Shown here one piece after another: positions 16,138 through 54,315 of a stretch of DNA of 64,000 nucleotides. The position numbers and the translations under genes were made by a program. The stretch's first letter is position 1. Each line of letters starts with the position of its first letter. The notes below the pieces were generated by a model that had not been told where the DNA came from, did no database searches, and was given only the letters and a program-made list of their open reading frames with translations. The stretch comes from Gemmatimonadales bacterium (GTDB lineage: Bacteria; Gemmatimonadota; Gemmatimonadetes; Longimicrobiales; Gaopeijiaceae), in the NCBI GenBank assembly GCA_007692665.1, contig REBP01000117.1, forward strand, positions 1 to 64,000, read 5' to 3'.

Positions 16138-16572
16138 TCAGCCGATGGGGATCGGCGTCCGGACCCCCCACGGGGAATCCGGATGCACCGTCTGGCGGCC
16201 CAGCCCCCGGCCCTCGTTCAGCACAAGGAGCCCCTGCAGGTTGGCGGTGGGCTGGCCCTGCTGCTCCCGGGGGAGGGTCACGATGGCCAGGATGGTGAGA
16301 GCCGACACCTCGGAGGTGCCCAGGTGCCGGAGGACCCAGGGGGGGAGCACCATCCGAAAGGCGGGGAGGAAGCTGGCGGGGTCGATGGCGAGGAAGTCCG
16401 GACCCTGGCCGTCGCCACCCCGGAGACAGTACCGCCCCATTCCCAGCGACTGGAGTCGAAAGTCCCGATGCTCCGGAAAACCGTGGAGTCCGTTGGGAAA
16501 GAAGATGGGGGTGCCCTGGAGGGGCGCCGTCACGGGTGACGGGTCGGGAAGGGTGTGAGCGAGGGCGGTCAT
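16138..16572 (-). CDS. fliW: FliW, flagellin-binding assembly factor and CsrA antagonist
   Basis: 144 residues. The pattern TPIFFPNGLHGFPEHRDFRLQ near the N-terminus, FLAIDP in the middle and PTANLQGLLVLN near residue 110 is characteristic of FliW. FliW binds the flagellin C-terminus; when flagellin is secreted, freed FliW binds CsrA and relieves repression of flagellin translation (established in Bacillus and Campylobacter). Its ATG overlaps the flgL stop (ATGA), so it is coupled to flgL. csrA and a hairpin-bearing fliC leader are also in this window, which completes the circuit. Confidence 0.92.
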   Translation of the reverse strand: MTALAHTLPDPSPVTAPLQGTPIFFPNGLHGFPEHRDFRLQSLGMGRYCLRGGDGQGPDFLAIDPASFLPAFRMVLPPWVLRHLGTSEVSALTILAIVTLPREQQGQPTANLQGLLVLNEGRGLGRQTVHPDSPWGVRTPIPIG

Positions 16573-17447
16573 CGCAGGTAGTCCGTGAGGTTGACGCTCA
16601 TGATGCGCGACGTGGCAAGGAGGGCGGCCTGGTAGGCGGCCTGGCGGTTGGAGAGCCGGGAGATGGCCTCCTCGAAGTCCACGTCCTCCAGGTCGGAACG
16701 GTACTCCACCAGGTTCAGCTCGAGATCGGCAGACCGCGAGGCGGCCAGGTCCAGACGGTTCATCCGGCCTCCCAGCTCTCCCACCAGGACCTGCACCTGG
16801 TCGAAGGCCCGGGACAGCGTGACCTGCGCGCCCCGAATGGACTCGGGGTCGTTTGCATCCAGCGCCTGAGCCAGTTCCTCAAGCGCGGCCAGCGCTCCCG
16901 TGTCCCCGAAGATCTCCCGGGCGGAGCGATTGGGGACCAGGGTGCGGCCTGGGCCGATCTCCACCGGCGATGCCCCGGTGGGGAGGGGCGCGGCGGACGT
17001 GCTCCCGGCGGCGAAGGGGGGTGTGGTGGACTGGGCGCCTCCGAACAGGTAGCGTTCGCCCACGCGGGTGTTCCCGAGGTCCTGGACGAAGGCCATGAGT
17101 TCCCGGAGCTCCCGGGCGGCGGTTTCCCTGGTTGCGGCGCTGGCGGTGCTCCCCCCCTGCGAGAGAGCCAGCTCGCGGCCCCGTGTCAGGACATCGCCGA
17201 GCTGGGAAAGGACCACGTCTTCCATGGCCAGGAACGAATTCACCCGGGACATGTTGCGAAGGAACTGGTCGTTCGCCTGGAGTCCGGCGTTTGTCCGCAT
17301 GATGGACCGTGCCGCCGCCGGATCGTCGGAGGGTGCCGAAACACGACGCCCCGAGACGATTTCTCCGGTGGCCCGCTCCACTTCCCGCAGGTTGGACTGG
17401 ATCCCCTCCAGCGTCAACCTCTGCATGTTGATGTTCGGTACGCGCAC
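16569..17447 (-). CDS. flgL: FlgL, hook-filament junction protein
   Basis: 292 residues from a GTG start with GGAGG 9 bases upstream. The N-terminus MRVPNINMQRLTLEGIQSNL and the helix EIVSGRRVSAPSDDPAAARSI match the flagellin-like D0/D1 region of FlgL, and the C-terminus has the matching heptad helix. FlgL (HAP3) joins the FlgK ring to the filament and is exported by the flagellar type III system. Unlike most of the island it lies on the minus strand, separate from flgK, and has its own sigma28-like promoter. Length is normal for the family (about 290-320). Confidence 0.92.
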   Translation of the reverse strand: MRVPNINMQRLTLEGIQSNLREVERATGEIVSGRRVSAPSDDPAAARSIMRTNAGLQANDQFLRNMSRVNSFLAMEDVVLSQLGDVLTRGRELALSQGGSTASAATRETAARELRELMAFVQDLGNTRVGERYLFGGAQSTTPPFAAGSTSAAPLPTGASPVEIGPGRTLVPNRSAREIFGDTGALAALEELAQALDANDPESIRGAQVTLSRAFDQVQVLVGELGGRMNRLDLAASRSADLELNLVEYRSDLEDVDFEEAISRLSNRQAAYQAALLATSRIMSVNLTDYLR

Positions 17448-17529
17448 GGCGCTTGCCTCCGACAGGGTTCAGGGGGCCTCCCTCGTATTGCGTGCAGGAT
17501 CCGTGGCCCCGTACCTTCTCGTGCTTGCA

Positions 17530-17556
17530 GTATCGGAGGGGCACCGGGATTCTTGA
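17530..17556 (-). promoter_or_regulatory. Sigma28-like promoter of flgL-fliW
   Basis: On the minus strand TCAA (17556-17553), exactly 15 bases, then TCCGATAC (17537-17530). Both hexamer cores and the spacing are identical to the flagellin promoter at 50500-50526. Predicted leader is about 75 nt. Confidence 0.75.
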
Positions 17557-17623
17557 GTGCTCTCGCATCCCCCGCTCGGTGCCAGGCGTCTTCCCACCTC
17601 TCTCTCCCTCTCCCTGCAGGCCC

Positions 17624-19045
17624 ATGGCAACGATCCTCATCGTGGACGACGAGCCCACGCCCCTTCAGATCATGGAGGAACTTGTCCGGCAGGCGGGGCA
17701 TCGTCCCATCGCCGTGCGAAGCGTGGAGGCCGCGCTCACGGTGCTGGCCCGGGGAGGCGTGGACCTCGTCGTGTCGGACTACCGGATGCCCGGCACGACG
17801 GGACTCGAGTTCCTCGGGATTCTCGAGGACGAAGGCTTCAAGGTGGGGCTCATCATGGTCACGGGGTATGCGTCCATCGAGCATGCCGTCTCCGCCATCA
17901 AGGCCGGGGCCATCGATTACGTGACCAAGCCGGTGCGGGCGGCCCAGCTCGAACTCGCCATCGACCAGGCCCTGGAGTTCCTCCGACTCCGGGCCGAGAA
18001 CGCGCAGTTGCGAAAGGAGGTGGGGGAGCTCCGCAGCGGGAAGGAGATCGTGGGAGCCAGCGAATCCCTCAAGCGTGTCATGGAAACCATTCGGACCGTC
18101 GCTCCCGCGCGGGCCTCGGTCCTTCTCGAGGGGGAGTCGGGGACGGGGAAGGAGCTCCTTGCCAGGGCCCTTCACAACCTGAGTGATCGCGCCTCCGGCC
18201 CCTTCATTTCCATCAACTGCGCCGCGCTCCCCGAGACGCTGGTGGAAAGCGCCCTCTTCGGACACGAGAAGGGGGCCTTCACGGGAGCGGTGAAGACCGT
18301 GCATGGTGCCTTCGAGCGGGCCCACAGGGGGACACTCCTCCTGGACGAGGTGACCGAGATGCGGCAGGACCTCCAGGCCAAGCTCCTCCGCGTGCTTCAG
18401 GAACAGGAGTTCGAACGGGTGGGCGGGACCTCCACGATCCGGGTGGATGTGCGTGTGGTGGCCACGACGAATCGCACCCTCAGCGACGAGATCCGGGCGG
18501 GCCGTTTCCGGGAGGATCTCTACTACCGGCTGAGCGTCGTGCCCATTCGCGTGCCCCCACTTCGAGAGCGCAGGGAGGATATCCCCGCCCTCACTGCCCA
18601 CTTTGCACGTCGCGTCGCCATGGAGATGGGGAAGCCCCTCAGCGGGGTGTCACCCGAAGCGCTGGATCTCCTCCAGAACCACGACTGGCCGGGAAACGTC
18701 CGGGAGCTGTCGCATGCGGTGGAGCGGGCTGTGATCCTCTGCCGTGGCGAGATTCTGGATGCCGGGGCCTTCGACGCCGCCCGCTTCGGACTCAGCCTTC
18801 CGGAAGGTTCGCCCGGGGTCGGTCCGGGGGCGGGGGACAGGGAAGGGCAGACTCCGCCGACGAGGGAGCATGACTCCGCCTCGGGCCCGGATCCGGTGAT
18901 GCTCCGCACCCTCAACCTCGCCGAAGCCGAGACCGTCCTCATCGGGCGTGCCCTCGAGCGCACCGGCGACAACCGGACCCAGGCTGCGGATCTCCTGGGG
19001 ATCAACGTGCGCACCCTCCGCAGCAAGCTGAACCGGCCGGACTGA
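17624..19045 (+). CDS. NtrC-family sigma54 activator, probable master regulator of flagellar operons
   Basis: 473 residues. Receiver domain 1-120 (ILIVDDEPT, phospho-Asp in LVVSDYRMPG, Lys in VTKPV). AAA+ domain about 145-375 with Walker A GESGTGKE (near 168), sigma54-contacting GAFTGA (near 218), Walker B GTLLLDEV and arginine-finger region RFREDLYYRL. C-terminal Fis-type helix-turn-helix (ALERTGDNRTQAADLLGINVRTLRSKL). An NtrC-like regulator beside three operons with -24/-12 candidates matches the FlgR/FleR/FlbD role of switching on hook-basal-body genes. The cognate kinase is not adjacent; the hybrid kinases upstream are candidates. ATG at 17624 gives a canonical receiver start. Confidence 0.88.
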   Translation: MATILIVDDEPTPLQIMEELVRQAGHRPIAVRSVEAALTVLARGGVDLVVSDYRMPGTTGLEFLGILEDEGFKVGLIMVTGYASIEHAVSAIKAGAIDYVTKPVRAAQLELAIDQALEFLRLRAENAQLRKEVGELRSGKEIVGASESLKRVMETIRTVAPARASVLLEGESGTGKELLARALHNLSDRASGPFISINCAALPETLVESALFGHEKGAFTGAVKTVHGAFERAHRGTLLLDEVTEMRQDLQAKLLRVLQEQEFERVGGTSTIRVDVRVVATTNRTLSDEIRAGRFREDLYYRLSVVPIRVPPLRERREDIPALTAHFARRVAMEMGKPLSGVSPEALDLLQNHDWPGNVRELSHAVERAVILCRGEILDAGAFDAARFGLSLPEGSPGVGPGAGDREGQTPPTREHDSASGPDPVMLRTLNLAEAETVLIGRALERTGDNRTQAADLLGINVRTLRSKLNRPD

Positions 19046-38979: not shown

Positions 38980-39837
38980 ATGGCACACCATGGACTGGAG
39001 AGCGACCGGATGGAGCAGATGGCAAGGATTCAGAGGGAGGGGACCGGCGAACTGCTGGCCCGATCCGAACGGGACCGACTCCTGCTGGAGCACCTTCCGC
39101 TGGTCCACCACGTGGCCCGGCAGATGCTTCGTCGGCGGAATCTCGACCTGGAACTGGACGATCTGGTGAGTGCCGGGACACTGGGTCTCATGGAGGCGCT
39201 GGAAAAGTTCGACGCCTCCCGGGGTCTGGCGGTGAGTACCTTTGCAACCCCGCGCATCCAGGGTGCCATCCTGGACGAGCTTCGCCGCCGGGACCCTCTC
39301 GGTCGGACCTCGCGGCGCCGTGTGCGGGAGATCGCCGAGGCTCGGGAGTCCCTCGCACAGGAGCTGGGCCGCGCCCCCGAGGACCGGGACGTGGCCCGGC
39401 GACTGGGGGTCCCGGCGGAGCAGATCGCCACCTGGGAGCGCGATGCCCTGGGCGCCGAAACCGTGCCGCTGGACCGTCCCGTGGTCGGGTCCGCCTCCAC
39501 GGCGGGAGCCCGGGGTGGGAGCGGAGGCGGCAGGGCGCTGGCCAGTGAGTCGGTCGCCGATGACTCGATTCTCCCGGCCGAACTCCTGCTGGAGCGCCGG
39601 GAGCAGGCCCGGATCCTCGGGGAGGAGCTCTCCAGCCTCCCGGAGCGGGAACGGCTGGTCCTCACACTCTACTATTTCGAGGAGCTCAAGCTCCACGAGA
39701 TCGCCACGGTCCTGGGGGTCACGGAATCCCGGATCTCCCAGATTCGCACCAAGGCGACCCGGACGCTTCGCGACCGGATGCAGCCCCGCCTGGGCCTGGG
39801 GCCGGAGCTGGGACGGAAGCCGGAGGTGGCAGGATGA
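38980..39837 (+). CDS. fliA: FliA, sigma28
   Basis: 285 residues. Region 2 is clear (HLPLVHHVARQMLRRR, LDDLVSAGTLGLMEALEKFD, STFATPRIQGAILDELRRRD). Region 3 has ELGRAPEDRDVARRLG, and region 4 has ERERLVLTLYYFEELKLHEIATVLGVTESRISQIRTKA. A Gly/Ala-rich linker of about 30 residues between regions 3 and 4 lengthens it slightly. It directs late flagellar promoters, six of which are visible here, and is held by FlgM. Start ATG 38980; ATG 39010 is an alternative. Its own expression appears sigma54-dependent. Confidence 0.95.
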   Translation: MAHHGLESDRMEQMARIQREGTGELLARSERDRLLLEHLPLVHHVARQMLRRRNLDLELDDLVSAGTLGLMEALEKFDASRGLAVSTFATPRIQGAILDELRRRDPLGRTSRRRVREIAEARESLAQELGRAPEDRDVARRLGVPAEQIATWERDALGAETVPLDRPVVGSASTAGARGGSGGGRALASESVADDSILPAELLLERREQARILGEELSSLPERERLVLTLYYFEELKLHEIATVLGVTESRISQIRTKATRTLRDRMQPRLGLGPELGRKPEVAG

Positions 39838-45245: not shown

Positions 45246-46655
45246 ATGTCCTCCATCGGTCGCATCATCTCCACGGCGAGCAACGCCCTTCAGGCCAACC
45301 AGGCGGCGCTCAGCGTCACCGGGCAGAACGTCGCCAACGCCAGCACCGAGGGGTACTCCCGACAGCGCGCGCTCATGGTGGAGTCTCCGGTAACCCGGCT
45401 CGCCCAGGGGAGCTTCGGGGGTGGCGTCATGGTCCAGGGGGTCGAGCGGATGCGTGACATCCTCCTGGACGCTGCCTTCCGCACCGAGTCGTCGAAATCG
45501 GAGGGGTTCCGGAGCCATGCCGATCTGATGCGCAGGGTGGAGGGGGCCATGGGAGAGCCGGGAGATGCCGGGATCTCCGCCGCCCTGGACCGCTTCTACT
45601 CGGCCTGGAGCGAGCTGGCGACCGCGCCCGAGAGCGAGGCGGCCCGGTCCGGCTTGCGCCAGGTCACGGAGGCCCTCACGTTTCGCATGAACGAGGTGTC
45701 GTCCGGCATCGAGCGCCTCCGCCTCGATGGATTCGAGCGACTGGAGCAGGGCGTCGGGCGGGTCCAGGCCCTGGTGGCCGATGTGGTGGCGATCAACCGC
45801 AGCATCGTCACCGCCGAAGCCTCGGGGGTCCAGGCACCGGATCTTCGGGATTCCCGGGACCGGGCGCTGGACGAACTGGCCCGGCTCCTTCCCATCCAGG
45901 TGCAGCAGAACGCAGACGGCACGGTCCGGGTCAATCTGGGCGGGATCGGGATCGTCGATGGCCAGAAGATCCCGGAATTCGGGCTCGACGCCACCGGTGG
46001 ACAATTCCGGCTCATGGTGGGCTCGCGCAGCATCGCTCTCTCAAGCTCCGAGGGGCAACTCGGTGGCATCATGCAGGCAGTCAACCACGACATCCCCGCC
46101 CTCCGGGCCGGGCTGGACGCCATGGCCAACGCCCTGGTGGAGTCCGTCAATTCCCTGCACCGAACCGGAACCAATCCCCTGGGGCAGGAGGGAGTGGACT
46201 TCTTCCATGTGCCGCTCGACGGCGCCGGCGACCCGCTCCCGGTTTCCGCGGCCGGGATCCGCCTTTCCGATGCCGTCCTGGCATCGGCCCTGGCCATCGC
46301 TGCCGGCCCCGGCTCCGGCGAGGTGGACAACGAGTTCCAGCCCGGGGTCAACAGCCTGGCGCTCTCACTCGCCGGACTTCGGGATCAGCCACTGGCCGCC
46401 CTCGGTGGCCAGAGTGTCTCCAGCCGGTTCGGGCAGATCGTGGGCGAGGCTGCCAACGCGACCCGCCGCTCCAGGGACGGAACCGAGGTCCACCGCATTC
46501 TCGCGCAGCAGGCGGACCATCGCCGGGCCGAGGTTTCCGGGGTCTCGCTGGACGAGGAGATGGTCAAGCTCATCCAGTTCCAGGCCGCCTATTCCGCAGC
46601 GGCCCGAGTCCTTTCCGCGGCCGACGAGATGCTCCAGACGCTTCTCCAGATCTGA
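45246..46655 (+). CDS. flgK: FlgK, hook-filament junction protein
   Basis: 469 residues. N-terminus SSIGRIISTASNALQANQAALSVTGQNVANASTEGYSRQRALM is the standard FlgK start. LDRFYSAWSELATAPESEAAR and the C-terminal GVSLDEEMVKLIQFQAAYSAAARVLSAADEMLQTLLQI confirm it. FlgK (HAP1) caps the hook and joins FlgL. It belongs to the sigma54 operon, while its partner flgL is under a sigma28-like promoter. Confidence 0.95.
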   Translation: MSSIGRIISTASNALQANQAALSVTGQNVANASTEGYSRQRALMVESPVTRLAQGSFGGGVMVQGVERMRDILLDAAFRTESSKSEGFRSHADLMRRVEGAMGEPGDAGISAALDRFYSAWSELATAPESEAARSGLRQVTEALTFRMNEVSSGIERLRLDGFERLEQGVGRVQALVADVVAINRSIVTAEASGVQAPDLRDSRDRALDELARLLPIQVQQNADGTVRVNLGGIGIVDGQKIPEFGLDATGGQFRLMVGSRSIALSSSEGQLGGIMQAVNHDIPALRAGLDAMANALVESVNSLHRTGTNPLGQEGVDFFHVPLDGAGDPLPVSAAGIRLSDAVLASALAIAAGPGSGEVDNEFQPGVNSLALSLAGLRDQPLAALGGQSVSSRFGQIVGEAANATRRSRDGTEVHRILAQQADHRRAEVSGVSLDEEMVKLIQFQAAYSAAARVLSAADEMLQTLLQI

Positions 46656-46661
46656 CCGGCC

Positions 46662-46928
46662 GTGCTGATCCTGACGCGGAAGGTGGGGGAGTCCATCGTC
46701 CTCGACGGCGGCATCAGGATCACGATCGTCCAGAACGATGCGGGCGGGGTTCGGCTTGGAATCGAGGCGCCCCCGGAAGTGGGGATCTTCCGCGAGGAAC
46801 TCCTGGAGCGCATGGCCCTGGAAAACCGCCGAGCGTCGGCGAGCCCCGACCAGCTTCTGGAGTTCGTCCGCCGCCTGGGCCCGAACCCGCATCCCGTGCC
46901 AGGCACTTCCTCCGACCCGGGGGACTGA
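46662..46928 (+). CDS. csrA: CsrA, translational regulator
   Basis: 88 residues from GTG 46662. MLILTRKVGESIVLDGGIRITIVQNDAGGVRLGIEAPPEVGIFREEL is the classic CsrA core. A C-terminal extension of about 25 residues is rich in Pro and Ser. CsrA dimers bind GGA motifs in hairpin loops, often covering ribosome binding sites. Coupled with fliW and flagellin in this window it probably forms the FliW-CsrA-flagellin feedback. Conserved position after flgK/flgL. Confidence 0.95.
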   Translation: MLILTRKVGESIVLDGGIRITIVQNDAGGVRLGIEAPPEVGIFREELLERMALENRRASASPDQLLEFVRRLGPNPHPVPGTSSDPGD

Positions 46929-48614: not shown

Positions 48615-49498
48615 CCCGCGCCCGGGACACCGCGGGAGAAGGCAGGGGTTCGACCTCCGCCCGAGGCGGTGGCGGAAGTCGCCCGATCATCGTGGTCCGG
48701 AAACGAAGGAGGCCCCACAGCGGACACCATGGGGGATCATGGAAGGTCGCCTACGCCGACTTCGTCACGGCGATGATGGCCTTCTTCCTGGTCATGTGGA
48801 TCATGGGAATGGATCAGGACGCCCGGGACCTGGTCCAGGGGTACTTCAACAATCCCCTGGGCATGAGCCCCGGGAACCCGACGGGCCTGAATCCGCTGAC
48901 CTCGGGGCAGGGCATGCAGCTCCAGGGGTCAGGCACCCCTGCCTTCGGTGCCCTGGCCGAGCGAGCACAGTTCGAGTCCGTGGCCATGAATCTGCGACGC
49001 AGCTTCCAGGCATCCGGACTGGCTGACCTGGGGGTCGAACTGGAGGTCATCGTGTCAACGGACGGGTTGCGGATGGAAATCATGGAGGCCGGCCAGGAGG
49101 AGATCTTCTTCGGAACGGGCGACGCGAAGGTCCGGCCGGTCCTGATTTCCGTTCTGGGGCTCGTCGCCGCGGAGATTCGCCGGCTCTCCCACGAGATCGT
49201 GGTGGAGGGGCACACCGATGCCCGACCCTACGTGGGCGAGGGTCCCTACGGGAACTGGGAACTCTCGGTGGACCGGGCCAATGCGGCTCGCAGGGCCATG
49301 GAGAGCGACGGGCTGGGCGGGTCCCGGATCTCGGAAGTCCGAGGCCATGCCGATCGAGCTCTTCGAGTCGCCGGCGACGGCCTCGCTCCTCAGAACCGGA
49401 GGGTGAGTCTCTTCGTGCCTGCCCTGGCCGGGGCGGTGCCTCTGTGGGAGCCCGCCGCCCGCGAGGGAGAACAGGAGCGGGGGAGGGACGGACCATGA
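48611..49498 (+). CDS. motB: MotB, stator subunit (first set)
   Basis: 295 residues. A basic N-terminus and one membrane helix, WKVAYADFVTAMMAFFLVMW, carrying the ion-binding Asp50. The plug region and an OmpA-like peptidoglycan-binding domain (VVEGHTDARPY...NWELSVDRANAARRAM) follow. The YADFVTAMMAFF pattern is that of proton-type MotB proteins. ATG 48611 overlaps the motA stop; the stop overlaps the next receiver gene (ATGA). Confidence 0.93.
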   Translation: MTRARDTAGEGRGSTSARGGGGSRPIIVVRKRRRPHSGHHGGSWKVAYADFVTAMMAFFLVMWIMGMDQDARDLVQGYFNNPLGMSPGNPTGLNPLTSGQGMQLQGSGTPAFGALAERAQFESVAMNLRRSFQASGLADLGVELEVIVSTDGLRMEIMEAGQEEIFFGTGDAKVRPVLISVLGLVAAEIRRLSHEIVVEGHTDARPYVGEGPYGNWELSVDRANAARRAMESDGLGGSRISEVRGHADRALRVAGDGLAPQNRRVSLFVPALAGAVPLWEPAAREGEQERGRDGP

Positions 49499-50025
49499 CG
49501 CACTCCCTGACCGACAGACTGCAAGAGTTCCGTGCAAATCAAGAGAGAGCGAGCACGCCTCCCGCCCTGCCTCTCGTCCTCGTCGTGGACGACCTGCCCG
49601 TCGTGCAAACGCTCGTCGGGCGCTACCTGGCGCACCTGGGATTCGACATGGTGCCGGCGGGAGACGCCGATCAGGCTGTCCAGATCCTTCGTTCGCGGGA
49701 CGTCTCCCACGTCATTCTGGACGTTCATTTCCCCGGGGGAACCGAGGCGGTCTACGCCGAAATCCAGTCCAGGAACGACGAGCTGTGGCGGAGGACGGCC
49801 TTCATGACCGGGGGGTTCGTCGACCGTGCCAGGGAAGCCTTCGTGAGGAATACGGGATGCGCGGTCATCTTCAAGCCCTTCGAACTGGATCAACTGCGTC
49901 ACTTCCTCCTGCCTCCACCCGGCGCCAATTCGGACGAGGAGCCGCCTCGGGTCCAGGCTCAGCCGGCGCCAACCGGGAGGCAGCCCCGCCCGGCCATGTC
50001 CACCATGTCCACCAGACGCGGGTAG
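49495..50025 (+). CDS. Stand-alone response-regulator receiver coupled to motAB
   Basis: 176 residues from ATG 49495, overlapping the motB stop. Receiver motifs: VLVVDDLPVVQ, phospho-acceptor in VILDVHFPGG, FMTGG and FKPFELDQL. The Thr and Lys are present, so phosphorylation is plausible. A basic, Pro-rich tail of about 30 residues follows. No output domain. Translation coupling to motB suggests a stator-directed role, but that is inference. Its 3' end overlaps a convergent receiver gene by 67 bp. Confidence 0.72.
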   Translation: MTHSLTDRLQEFRANQERASTPPALPLVLVVDDLPVVQTLVGRYLAHLGFDMVPAGDADQAVQILRSRDVSHVILDVHFPGGTEAVYAEIQSRNDELWRRTAFMTGGFVDRAREAFVRNTGCAVIFKPFELDQLRHFLLPPPGANSDEEPPRVQAQPAPTGRQPRPAMSTMSTRRG

Positions 50026-50471
50026 GAAAAGGGCTTTCGCACCCGGATCACTCCCTTGTCCGCGAAAGGGGTGGCGCGGTCGTCCATGCTCCCGCTCACC
50101 AGAAGGATCGTGCCCGTGAAGTCGGGCCGGCCAAGGAGCGCCCGAACCACCGATTCGCCCCCTCCGGGCATCTTCCAGTCCACCAGGGCCACATCCGGCA
50201 GGGCCGTGTTCATCAAGGCGAGCGCCTCGTCGGCCGAGGCGGCCAGCTCCACCTGGTATCCCTTCGTCTCCAGCATCATGGCCAGGGTGCGTCGGATGAC
50301 GGGCTCGTCATCGGCCACGAGGACCCGGATCGGGCGGTCGGGGCACGGGCGGTTGGGTGCGGACTCCGGCGAATCGGACACGACGAACCTTGATGGAGGG
50401 TTGGCGGGCAGCCCCCCCGGAGGGGATGGCATGTCCGTGTCGTCACCGAGACTTGGCAAGGTCGGTGCCAT
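49959..50471 (-). CDS. Stand-alone response-regulator receiver
   Basis: 170 residues from ATG 50471; a later start at the Met near residue 14 is possible. The first 45 residues are Pro/Ser-rich. Receiver: VLVADDEPVIRRTLAMMLETKGY, phospho-acceptor in VALVDWKMPGG, LLVSGSMDD and VRKPF. No output domain. It diverges from fliC and shares 67 bp at its 3' end with the receiver gene on the other strand. Either end could be mis-set, but both stop codons follow good receiver folds. Confidence 0.68.
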   Translation of the reverse strand: MAPTLPSLGDDTDMPSPPGGLPANPPSRFVVSDSPESAPNRPCPDRPIRVLVADDEPVIRRTLAMMLETKGYQVELAASADEALALMNTALPDVALVDWKMPGGGESVVRALLGRPDFTGTILLVSGSMDDRATPFADKGVIRVRKPFSYPRLVDMVDMAGRGCLPVGAG

Positions 50472-50499: not shown

Positions 50500-50526
50500 T
50501 CAAGCTTCGGAAAGGGCGTCCGATAC
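50500..50526 (+). promoter_or_regulatory. Sigma28-like promoter of fliC
   Basis: TCAA (50500-50503), 15 bases, TCCGATAC (50519-50526). Identical core elements and spacing to the flgL promoter. The predicted leader of about 80 nt contains the CsrA-type hairpin and a strong ribosome binding site. Confidence 0.8.
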
Positions 50527-50563
50527 CTTGATGCAGAGGGCCGGTTGGGGCCGGTCCACTGAA

Positions 50564-50605
50564 GGAGCACGGATGCTCCACGACAGCACACTCTACGGAA
50601 GGAGG
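50564..50605 (+). promoter_or_regulatory. Probable CsrA-binding region in the fliC leader, with ribosome binding site
   Basis: GGAGCA (50564-50569) pairs perfectly with TGCTCC (50574-50579) and presents CGGA in the loop, the form CsrA prefers. A second GGA cluster lies in the Shine-Dalgarno region GGAAGGAGG (50597-50605), 8 bases before the ATG. Two sites, one upstream hairpin and one at the ribosome site, resemble the Bacillus hag leader. Confidence 0.65.
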
Positions 50606-50613
50606 AACCCCAA

Positions 50614-51450
50614 ATGTCTCGCATCAACACGAACGTCACCTCGCTGAACGCACAGCGGAACATCAGCCAGACCAACCAGGCCTTTGGCCGCACCGTGGGC
50701 CGGCTTTCGTCCGGCTTCCGGATCAACCGGGCGGCCGACGACGCCGCAGGACTCGGAATCGCGAACAAGCTCCGTTCTGACATCCGGGCCCTGAAGCAGG
50801 CTTCGTCCAACGCCACCCAGGCGAACTCGCTGCTCCAGGTGGCCGAAGGCGCCACGAACCAGATTTCCAACATCGTCGACCGCATGAAGGAGCTGGCCTC
50901 CCAGTCCGCCTCCGACTCGGTGAACAACGACGGCCGGGCTCTCATTCAGGCCGAGTTCTCGCAGCTCCAGGACGAGATCACCCGCATCGTCGACACCACC
51001 AAGTTCCAGGGCACGGAGCTGCTGAGCGGCGGAACGGGAGATCCCCTCCAGTTCATGGTGAGCGTGTCGGGGAACGCGGCAGGTGACGGGCAGGACTTCA
51101 TTTCGCTGGACGTGCAGGACCTGACGCTCACGGCGCTGGGCCTCGACGCTTCCTCCCTGGCCAGCCGGGACGACGCCGTGGAAGCCATCGGCGCCCTGGA
51201 CGAAGCCATCGGGAAGATCTCCGCCGCGCTCGGAGACATCGGTGCGGCGCAGAACCGCCTCGACTTTGCCCAGGCCAACGTGGCCACCACCATCGAGAAC
51301 TTCTCCGCGGCGGAGTCCGTGATCCGGGATGCGGACTTTGCGGCCGAGGCGTCTGAATTCGCCCGCCTGCAGATCCTGCAGCAGTCGCAGATCGCCATGC
51401 TGGCCCAGGCCAACGCAGCCCCGCAGGGTGTGCTGCAGCTCATCGGGTAA
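50614..51450 (+). CDS. fliC: FliC, flagellin (short)
   Basis: 278 residues. N-terminus MSRINTNVTSLNAQRNISQT and GRLSSGFRINRAADDAAGLGIANKL are typical D0/D1, and the C-terminus has DFAAEASEFARLQILQQSQIAMLAQANAAPQGVLQLIG. The variable D2/D3 region is essentially absent, so this is a minimal flagellin like Bacillus Hag. Single flagellin gene in the window. Expression is likely sigma28-dependent, with CsrA/FliW translational control. Confidence 0.96.
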   Translation: MSRINTNVTSLNAQRNISQTNQAFGRTVGRLSSGFRINRAADDAAGLGIANKLRSDIRALKQASSNATQANSLLQVAEGATNQISNIVDRMKELASQSASDSVNNDGRALIQAEFSQLQDEITRIVDTTKFQGTELLSGGTGDPLQFMVSVSGNAAGDGQDFISLDVQDLTLTALGLDASSLASRDDAVEAIGALDEAIGKISAALGDIGAAQNRLDFAQANVATTIENFSAAESVIRDADFAAEASEFARLQILQQSQIAMLAQANAAPQGVLQLIG

Positions 51451-53490: not shown

Positions 53491-53916
53491 ATGACGTACG
53501 GAAGAAGAAGCACGGACCGTGGAGGCCCGTACCGTTCCAACGACGTACTGACCCGAACCCCCGGGGCGCTGGTGGTCATGCTGTACCACCGCCTCCTCGT
53601 GGAGCTGCGTCGGGCCGACCATCAGATCAGCGCCGGGGATTTCGAGGGCAAGGCGGCGAGCCTGGAGCGGGCTTCCGACATCGTCTTCGAACTGCTGGGC
53701 TCGCTGAATCACGAGGCGGGTGGGGAGCTGGCTGGTCGCCTGTCGGCCCTGTACACCTACTTCATTCGCGAAATCCAGGAGGTGAATCGCTCCCTGGATC
53801 GAGCCAGGCTGGCACATCTGGTCGAGGTGATCGGTCCCCTCCACGCGTCCTGGTCCCAGGCGGCGGCCGCGACCGTCACCGGTGCCGTGCCCACCCCGGA
53901 TGCAGAGACCCGCTAA
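53491..53916 (+). CDS. fliS: FliS, flagellin export chaperone
   Basis: 141 residues. The pattern YRSNDVLTRTPGALVVMLYHRLLVELRRADHQISAGDFEGKAASLERASDIVFELLGSL..EAGGELAGRLSALYTYFIREI is typical FliS, allowing for the usual Y-x-x-N-x-V start. It wraps the flagellin C-terminus until export and competes there with FliW. The stop codon overlaps the -35 of the flgM promoter. Confidence 0.94.
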   Translation: MTYGRRSTDRGGPYRSNDVLTRTPGALVVMLYHRLLVELRRADHQISAGDFEGKAASLERASDIVFELLGSLNHEAGGELAGRLSALYTYFIREIQEVNRSLDRARLAHLVEVIGPLHASWSQAAAATVTGAVPTPDAETR

Positions 53917-53997: not shown

Positions 53998-54315
53998 ATG
54001 AGCATGCAACCCATCTCCGGCGACATCCTGAAGGGCGTTGGTGCCCGTCGAACCGAAGAGTCCCGGGGGGCCGGCCCCCGTGTCCCTCTCACAAGTCCTG
54101 TCCAGAGGGCGGAACGAGCCGATCGAGTCGAGATCTCGCAGGAAGGGCGCGCCCAGGCCATGAAGGCGGCCCGCGGCGAGGGCGGGGTTTCGCCCCTCGG
54201 GTCGGAGCGACTGGACAACATTCGGGCCCGCATCGACGACGGGACCTATGACCAACCCGAGGTGCTGGAACAGGTGGCGCGAAAGCTCCTGAGCTCCGGC
54301 GACCTCGGCCTTTGA
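53998..54315 (+). CDS. flgM: FlgM, anti-sigma28
   Basis: 105 residues. The disordered N-terminal half precedes RADRVEISQEGRAQAMKAAR and the C-terminal sigma-binding helices RLDNIRARIDDGTYDQPEVLEQVARKLL, which match FlgM. FlgM binds FliA until the hook is finished, then leaves through the export channel. Having its own sigma28-like promoter gives negative feedback. First gene of a five-gene run that continues with cheY. Confidence 0.92.
   Translation: MSMQPISGDILKGVGARRTEESRGAGPRVPLTSPVQRAERADRVEISQEGRAQAMKAARGEGGVSPLGSERLDNIRARIDDGTYDQPEVLEQVARKLLSSGDLGL

Follow-up and report, generated by a model that had tools for sequence, protein, structure and literature searches.

A candidate two-site CsrA operator in the flagellin leader of a Gemmatimonadales bacterium and its conservation across Gemmatimonadota

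Two hairpins in the fliC leader

The leader of fliC in this Gemmatimonadales genome is very probably a two-site CsrA operator that serves a FliW-CsrA-flagellin feedback circuit, as its sequence and the analogy with studied systems indicate. The window, a 64,000-nucleotide stretch of contig REBP01000117.1, encodes a 278-residue flagellin (fliC, 50614..51450, plus strand; Flagellin_N 1.6e-39, Flagellin_C 7.7e-23). The initial annotation had pointed to a perfect 6-bp stem with a CGGA loop in the leader and to a second GGA cluster in the Shine-Dalgarno sequence, and both are present. The upstream hairpin (50564–50579, plus strand) has the form GGAGCA[CGGA]TGCTCC, with the arms GGAGCA (50564–50569) and TGCTCC (50574–50579) joined by a perfect 6-bp Watson-Crick stem and the CGGA loop at 50570–50573. 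It presents the A-N-GGA motif at the loop and is designated candidate CsrA site 1 on the basis of sequence, fold and comparison.

Shuffling the 117-nt leader produced an ANGGA-loop hairpin of five or more Watson-Crick pairs in 0.085% of trials. Four such hairpins occur on the two strands of the 64-kb window compared to 1.4 expected, and only 50564–50579 is located directly upstream of a start codon. The remaining three (16839, 23300 and 56257, all plus strand) lie within or antisense to genes and are about as many as chance would give. The minimum free energy structure of RNA 50530–50640 retains the upstream hairpin with a modest overall z-score of −1.46. The site matches the E. coli SELEX consensus RUACARGGAUGU at 8 of 12 letters and has the core CA-N-GGAUG. 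An intrinsic terminator was considered for this hairpin and rejected because the stem is followed by ACGACAGCAC, without a U run, and an Rfam scan of the window returned no family above its gathering score. Another stable hairpin, GGGCCGGT[TGGG]GCCGGTCC (50537–50556), lies 5′ of the CsrA-type hairpin in the leader. Its loop has no GGA, and it occupies the place where some relatives carry a second CsrA-type hairpin.

The Shine-Dalgarno cluster GGAAGGAGGA spans 50597–50606 and contains the Shine-Dalgarno sequence GGAGGA (50601–50606, plus strand), with 7 nt between it and the fliC ATG at 50614. The predicted fold places a GGA of this cluster inside the loop of a weaker hairpin, CTCT[ACGGAA]GGAG (50591–50604, plus strand), whose 3′ arm holds part of the Shine-Dalgarno sequence. 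This hairpin is candidate CsrA site 2, again from sequence, fold and comparison.

Sequence and comparison also point to a σ28-type promoter for fliC (50500–50525, plus strand) that consists of a −35 element TCAA (50500–50503), a 15-nt spacer and a −10 element TCCGATA (50519–50525). Transcription is predicted to start at approximately 50532, and both hairpins would therefore be within the fliC mRNA. Strong σ28-like sites (score of at least 14 of 17) were found in 62 of 110 Gemmatimonadota flagellin leaders compared to 1.65 expected from shuffles. Across the phylum, the hairpin lies a median of 37 nt downstream of the −10 element, with values clustered at 36–38 nt. A transcription start downstream of 50579, which the initial annotation had named as the observation that would speak against its proposal, is thus unlikely.

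Conservation and covariation of the leader in Gemmatimonadota

Flagellin genes were sought in 395 Gemmatimonadota genomes and found in 101; their upstream regions, pooled with those from an initial flagellin search, made up a set of 110 leaders. A hairpin was scored if it was upstream of the start codon, carried GGA in the loop and had four or more pairs in addition to the closing pair. The upstream hairpin was detected in 104 of the 110 leaders; dinucleotide shuffles gave a mean of 3.06 and a maximum of 7 in 100. The leaders share ancestry, and these counts are therefore not independent events. The spacing from the hairpin GGA to the start codon is mostly 30–42 nt. The comparison of leaders in related genomes that the initial annotation had proposed shows an invariant ANGGA loop over a covarying stem: GGA and the A at −2 are present in all 62 unique hairpins, and the A was not demanded by the search. 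The base opposite this A is T in 28, C in 20, A in 13 and G in 1 of the 62. Because the opposite base varies, the A is conserved for itself and not for pairing.

The stems take diverse forms that include GAGC/GCTC, AGGC/GCCT, GGGA/TCCC, GGGC/GCCC and GCGC/GCGC, among others. Six of the seven pairs of the upstream stem change on both sides, and the covariation score of 0.543 exceeds both the 0.202 of shuffles and the maximum of 0.158 obtained by sliding. By pair counting, both sides had changed in 92 cells; shuffles gave 26.8, and sliding gave no more than 10. The stem is kept by pairing and the loop is kept by sequence, a pattern characteristic of CsrA recognition.

The motif A.GGAR is close to the start codon in 102 of the 110 leaders. 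Sequence conservation of A.GGAG alone proves nothing because A.GGAG is the Shine-Dalgarno sequence itself, and the second hairpin was evaluated by pairing. The register was fixed and the 3′ arms were swapped between leaders for 68 unique cases with 2000 shuffles. A stem of at least three in-register pairs was found in 34 of the 68 (7.9 expected, maximum 17 in the 2000 shuffles), and at least four pairs were found in 22 (3.2 expected, maximum 10). A looser test, which had found at least four pairs in 54 of the 110 leaders compared to 29 expected, is superseded by the fixed-register result. All four pairs of the Shine-Dalgarno helix change on both sides, and the covariation score for the two helices together is 0.489 compared to 0.201. 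On these sequence comparisons, the Shine-Dalgarno hairpin is the weaker element of the two because it is short (3–5 pairs) and absent from some members of the phylum, with fewer than three in-register pairs in half of the unique leaders. It covaries, and does so less than the upstream hairpin.

A covariance model, R1, was trained on 37 leaders. Its sole match at E ≤ 1 in the source genome is 50563–50609, the fliC leader; the search for further CsrA targets consisted of this model. In 59 relatives, the best match in each genome with a clear fliC is just upstream of that gene, and R1 recovers the leaders of three genomes left out of training (G003, G005 and G019). Genomes without a flagellin match gave only weak hits, with E of about 0.02 or higher. 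A search with the flagellin of the window found one near relative, a Gemmatimonadales metagenome-assembled genome, and otherwise distant Alphaproteobacteria; R1 returned nothing convincing at the alphaproteobacterial flagellin loci (best E 0.73). One genome, G274, has flagellin and lacks csrA and fliW, and R1 finds no such leader hairpin there; this is a single case, and the flagellin may be foreign.

Five leaders of the f1 family (L006, L008, L009, L039 and L052, from G005, G019, G003, G223 and G306) have two consecutive ANGGA hairpins upstream of the Shine-Dalgarno sequence. By sequence, each of these leaders may carry three CsrA sites.

csrA and fliW in the flagellar island and in the phylum

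The initial annotation had placed csrA and fliW in the same island as fliC, and both are there. The island contains flgL-fliW, fliF, fliG, fliI, flgE, fliR, flhB, flhA, flhF, a sigma factor gene, flgG, flgA, flgI, flgK-csrA, fliC, fliD, fliS and flgM. The sigma factor (38980..39837, plus strand) belongs to the sigma-70 family, has regions 2, 3 and 4 and is probably FliA (σ28), judging from its position. The flagellin export chaperone gene fliS (53491..53916, plus strand) and the anti-σ28 factor gene flgM (53998..54315, plus strand) follow fliC. The host was also taken to be a likely diderm, and this is borne out: Gemmatimonadota is a diderm phylum, and the P-ring gene flgI fits such a host.

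Each regulator is encoded by a single copy in the genome. csrA (46662..46928, plus strand; PF02599 3.7e-20) is directly downstream of flgK (45246..46655, plus strand), and fliW (16138..16572, minus strand; 144 residues; PF02623 5.1e-19) overlaps the end of flgL (16569..17447, minus strand) by 4 bp. Each regulator thus follows one of the two hook-filament junction genes. Some 30 kb separates them, on opposite strands, and fliC lies 34 kb from fliW, likewise on the other strand. The CsrA protein has a conserved RNA-binding core, aligns with solved CsrA proteins and scores 69.4 against NCBIfam TIGR00202, just below the cut-off of 70.1. It has 88 residues compared to 61 in E. coli, and 12 further copies from the phylum range from 74 to 95 residues. 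A longer CsrA C terminus is usual in FliW-bearing species (PMC7366521), and by analogy the extension is a putative FliW docking region. FliW matches the solved FliW structures 2aj7 and 5dmb, the latter an entry that also contains CsrA, and is divergent in this genome (68.6 bits compared to about 80–125 in most relatives).

Among the 395 Gemmatimonadota genomes, 101 have flagellin, 97 have fliW, 102 have csrA and 95 have all three. csrA is present in 98 of the 101 genomes with a flagellin match and in 4 of the 294 without (table 98, 3, 4, 290), and the corresponding numbers for fliW are 96 of 101 and 1 of 294. Because the genomes are related, Fisher probabilities for these tables overstate the evidence; the pattern extends over 40 genera with flagellin and holds irrespective of them. 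Draft assemblies account for many of the exceptions, and in two the only flagellin hits are distant. In G130, a draft assembly, the leader and fliW are present and csrA was not found. This absence is likely an assembly gap, because the assembly is a draft and its genus mates have csrA. Three genomes (G123, G185 and G066) have csrA without detected flagellin or fliW and could be cases of recent flagella loss or assembly gaps.

Two receiver-domain genes just upstream of fliC (49444–50025, plus strand, and 49959–50470, minus strand) overlap at their ends, and the second is divergent from fliC. A σ54 activator with a receiver domain (17453–19042) is at the island edge and suggests a σ54 tier above σ28.

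The proposed circuit, alternative readings and known systems

The RNA elements, the genes and their co-occurrence are established by the data above; the binding and regulatory steps that follow are carried over from B. subtilis and C. jejuni. The fliC gene would be transcribed from the σ28 promoter with a start near 50532. A CsrA dimer would bind the strong upstream hairpin (50564–50579) through its ANGGA loop and bridge to the weak hairpin over the Shine-Dalgarno sequence (50591–50604), which would exclude ribosomes. FliW would inhibit CsrA via the CsrA C-terminal extension. Cytoplasmic flagellin that awaits export would hold FliW and leave CsrA to repress; after completion of the hook, flagellin would be exported, FliW would be freed, CsrA would release the message and flagellin would be made. 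CsrA binding, repression, FliW antagonism and the flagellin-FliW contact are all proposed by analogy with studied homologues. The initial annotation had read a complete FliW-CsrA-flagellin loop from this one locus. Leader conservation, Shine-Dalgarno covariation and the near confinement of csrA and fliW to flagellated genomes strongly support that reading at the level of sequence.

Three other explanations were weighed. A chance inverted repeat near the Shine-Dalgarno sequence could be entertained for the leader considered alone, since GGA is common near start codons and the folding z-score is only −1.46. Such a hairpin occurs in 0.085% of shuffled leaders, however, and 104 of 110 related leaders have it with covariation, so the comparison already refutes chance and leaves it virtually no weight. 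It is very unlikely that the hairpin is instead a structural mRNA element unrelated to CsrA, for example one that stabilizes the 5′ end or serves as a ribosome standby site. Standing about 30 nt from the predicted 5′ end, a stable stem could shield the message, and the ribosome requires the Shine-Dalgarno GGA anyway, but a structural role would not fix the A-N-GGA loop, which is invariant while the stem sequence varies freely, and csrA accompanies flagellin in 98 of 101 genomes.

The third explanation retains CsrA and changes its purpose: the flagellin mRNA would act mainly as a CsrA sponge, or CsrA and the leader would bring the mRNA to the cell pole, and fliC repression would be secondary. 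The C. jejuni flaA mRNA is reported to antagonize CsrA and to be directed to the pole through the CsrA-FliW network (PMC4894983), and the additional upstream ANGGA hairpin in several f1-family leaders would raise CsrA binding capacity. The second site over the Shine-Dalgarno sequence in nearly all leaders fits repression, and the near absence of csrA from non-flagellated genomes indicates few other mRNAs for a sponge to protect. This explanation is accordingly improbable, if less so than the structural one, and translational repression by CsrA remains the preferred reading.

The closest known leader is that of C. jejuni flaA, whose layout is nearer than that of B. subtilis hag. CsrA binding to two ANGGA stem-loops was demonstrated for flaA (Dugar et al. 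2016, PMC4894983). The flaA 5′ UTR is likewise from a diderm and has its second ANGGA stem-loop over the ribosome-binding site; compensatory changes are found in the leader among relatives, fliW is not adjacent to csrA, and non-flagellated relatives are without csrA and fliW (PMC4894983). At 45 nt, the C. jejuni leader is shorter, and its second codon holds a third GGA (PMC4894983), whereas the fliC leader is about 82 nt and GC-rich, with a longer upstream stem and a second codon without GGA. B. subtilis hag is regulated by CsrA-FliW (Yakhnin 2007, Mukherjee 2011, as summarized in PMC7652899 and PMC6529632), and its leader also has two CsrA sites, one of them over the Shine-Dalgarno sequence. 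In that system, FliW antagonizes CsrA and flagellin sequesters FliW. B. subtilis is a monoderm with, as outlined in these sources, adjacent and translationally coupled fliW and csrA; here fliW follows flgL and csrA follows flgK, 30 kb apart on opposite strands. Gammaproteobacterial CsrA targets share the RNA motif, with GGA both in the loops of hairpins and across the Shine-Dalgarno sequence, but the antagonists there are the CsrB/C sRNAs and FliW is absent, whereas here CsrA is linked to flagella and occurs together with FliW.

The initial annotation had seen a hag-like arrangement in a likely diderm. The layout is confirmed, and its novelty is less than that implied, given that the arrangement is already documented in the diderm C. 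jejuni flaA (PMC4894983). The FliW-CsrA-flagellin circuit itself is already known, including in a diderm, as is the joint presence of fliW and csrA over many phyla (PMC4682653). What is new is the leader motif across the phylum, its covariation and, inside a single phylum, the almost strict link between csrA and flagella. A literature search, largely without subscription papers, found no paper treating CsrA in Gemmatimonadota, and neither the phylum-wide extent of the leader nor the restriction of csrA nearly to flagellated genomes was found in the papers searched. A circuit so far known mainly from Firmicutes and Campylobacter is extended to a deep and little-studied phylum of diderms, in which the RNA target is conserved down to single bases.

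It is quite possible, as a tentative reading, that Gemmatimonadota CsrA is a dedicated flagellar regulator rather than a global one, that it acts mainly or solely on the flagellin leader and comes and goes with flagella in evolution, and that several lineages reinforced this leader by adding another CsrA hairpin upstream. That csrA is confined almost wholly to flagellated genomes of the phylum lends quantitative support to the idea that CsrA first served flagellin control and took on its global role later. The phylum also offers a simple test case, with one regulator, one antagonist and one evident target, and has cultured flagellated members (Gemmatimonas).

The f11 genomes (leaders L104, L111, L114, L132 and L161) have four flagellin paralogues each. 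Leaders of their MPGLSINTN-type flagellins have a very short hairpin or none, and the sister leaders keep the full hairpin, a difference that may reflect paralogue-specific control. Of the tandem flagellins in G320 (L106 and L115), one has a leader without the upstream hairpin and the other retains a 3-bp remnant.
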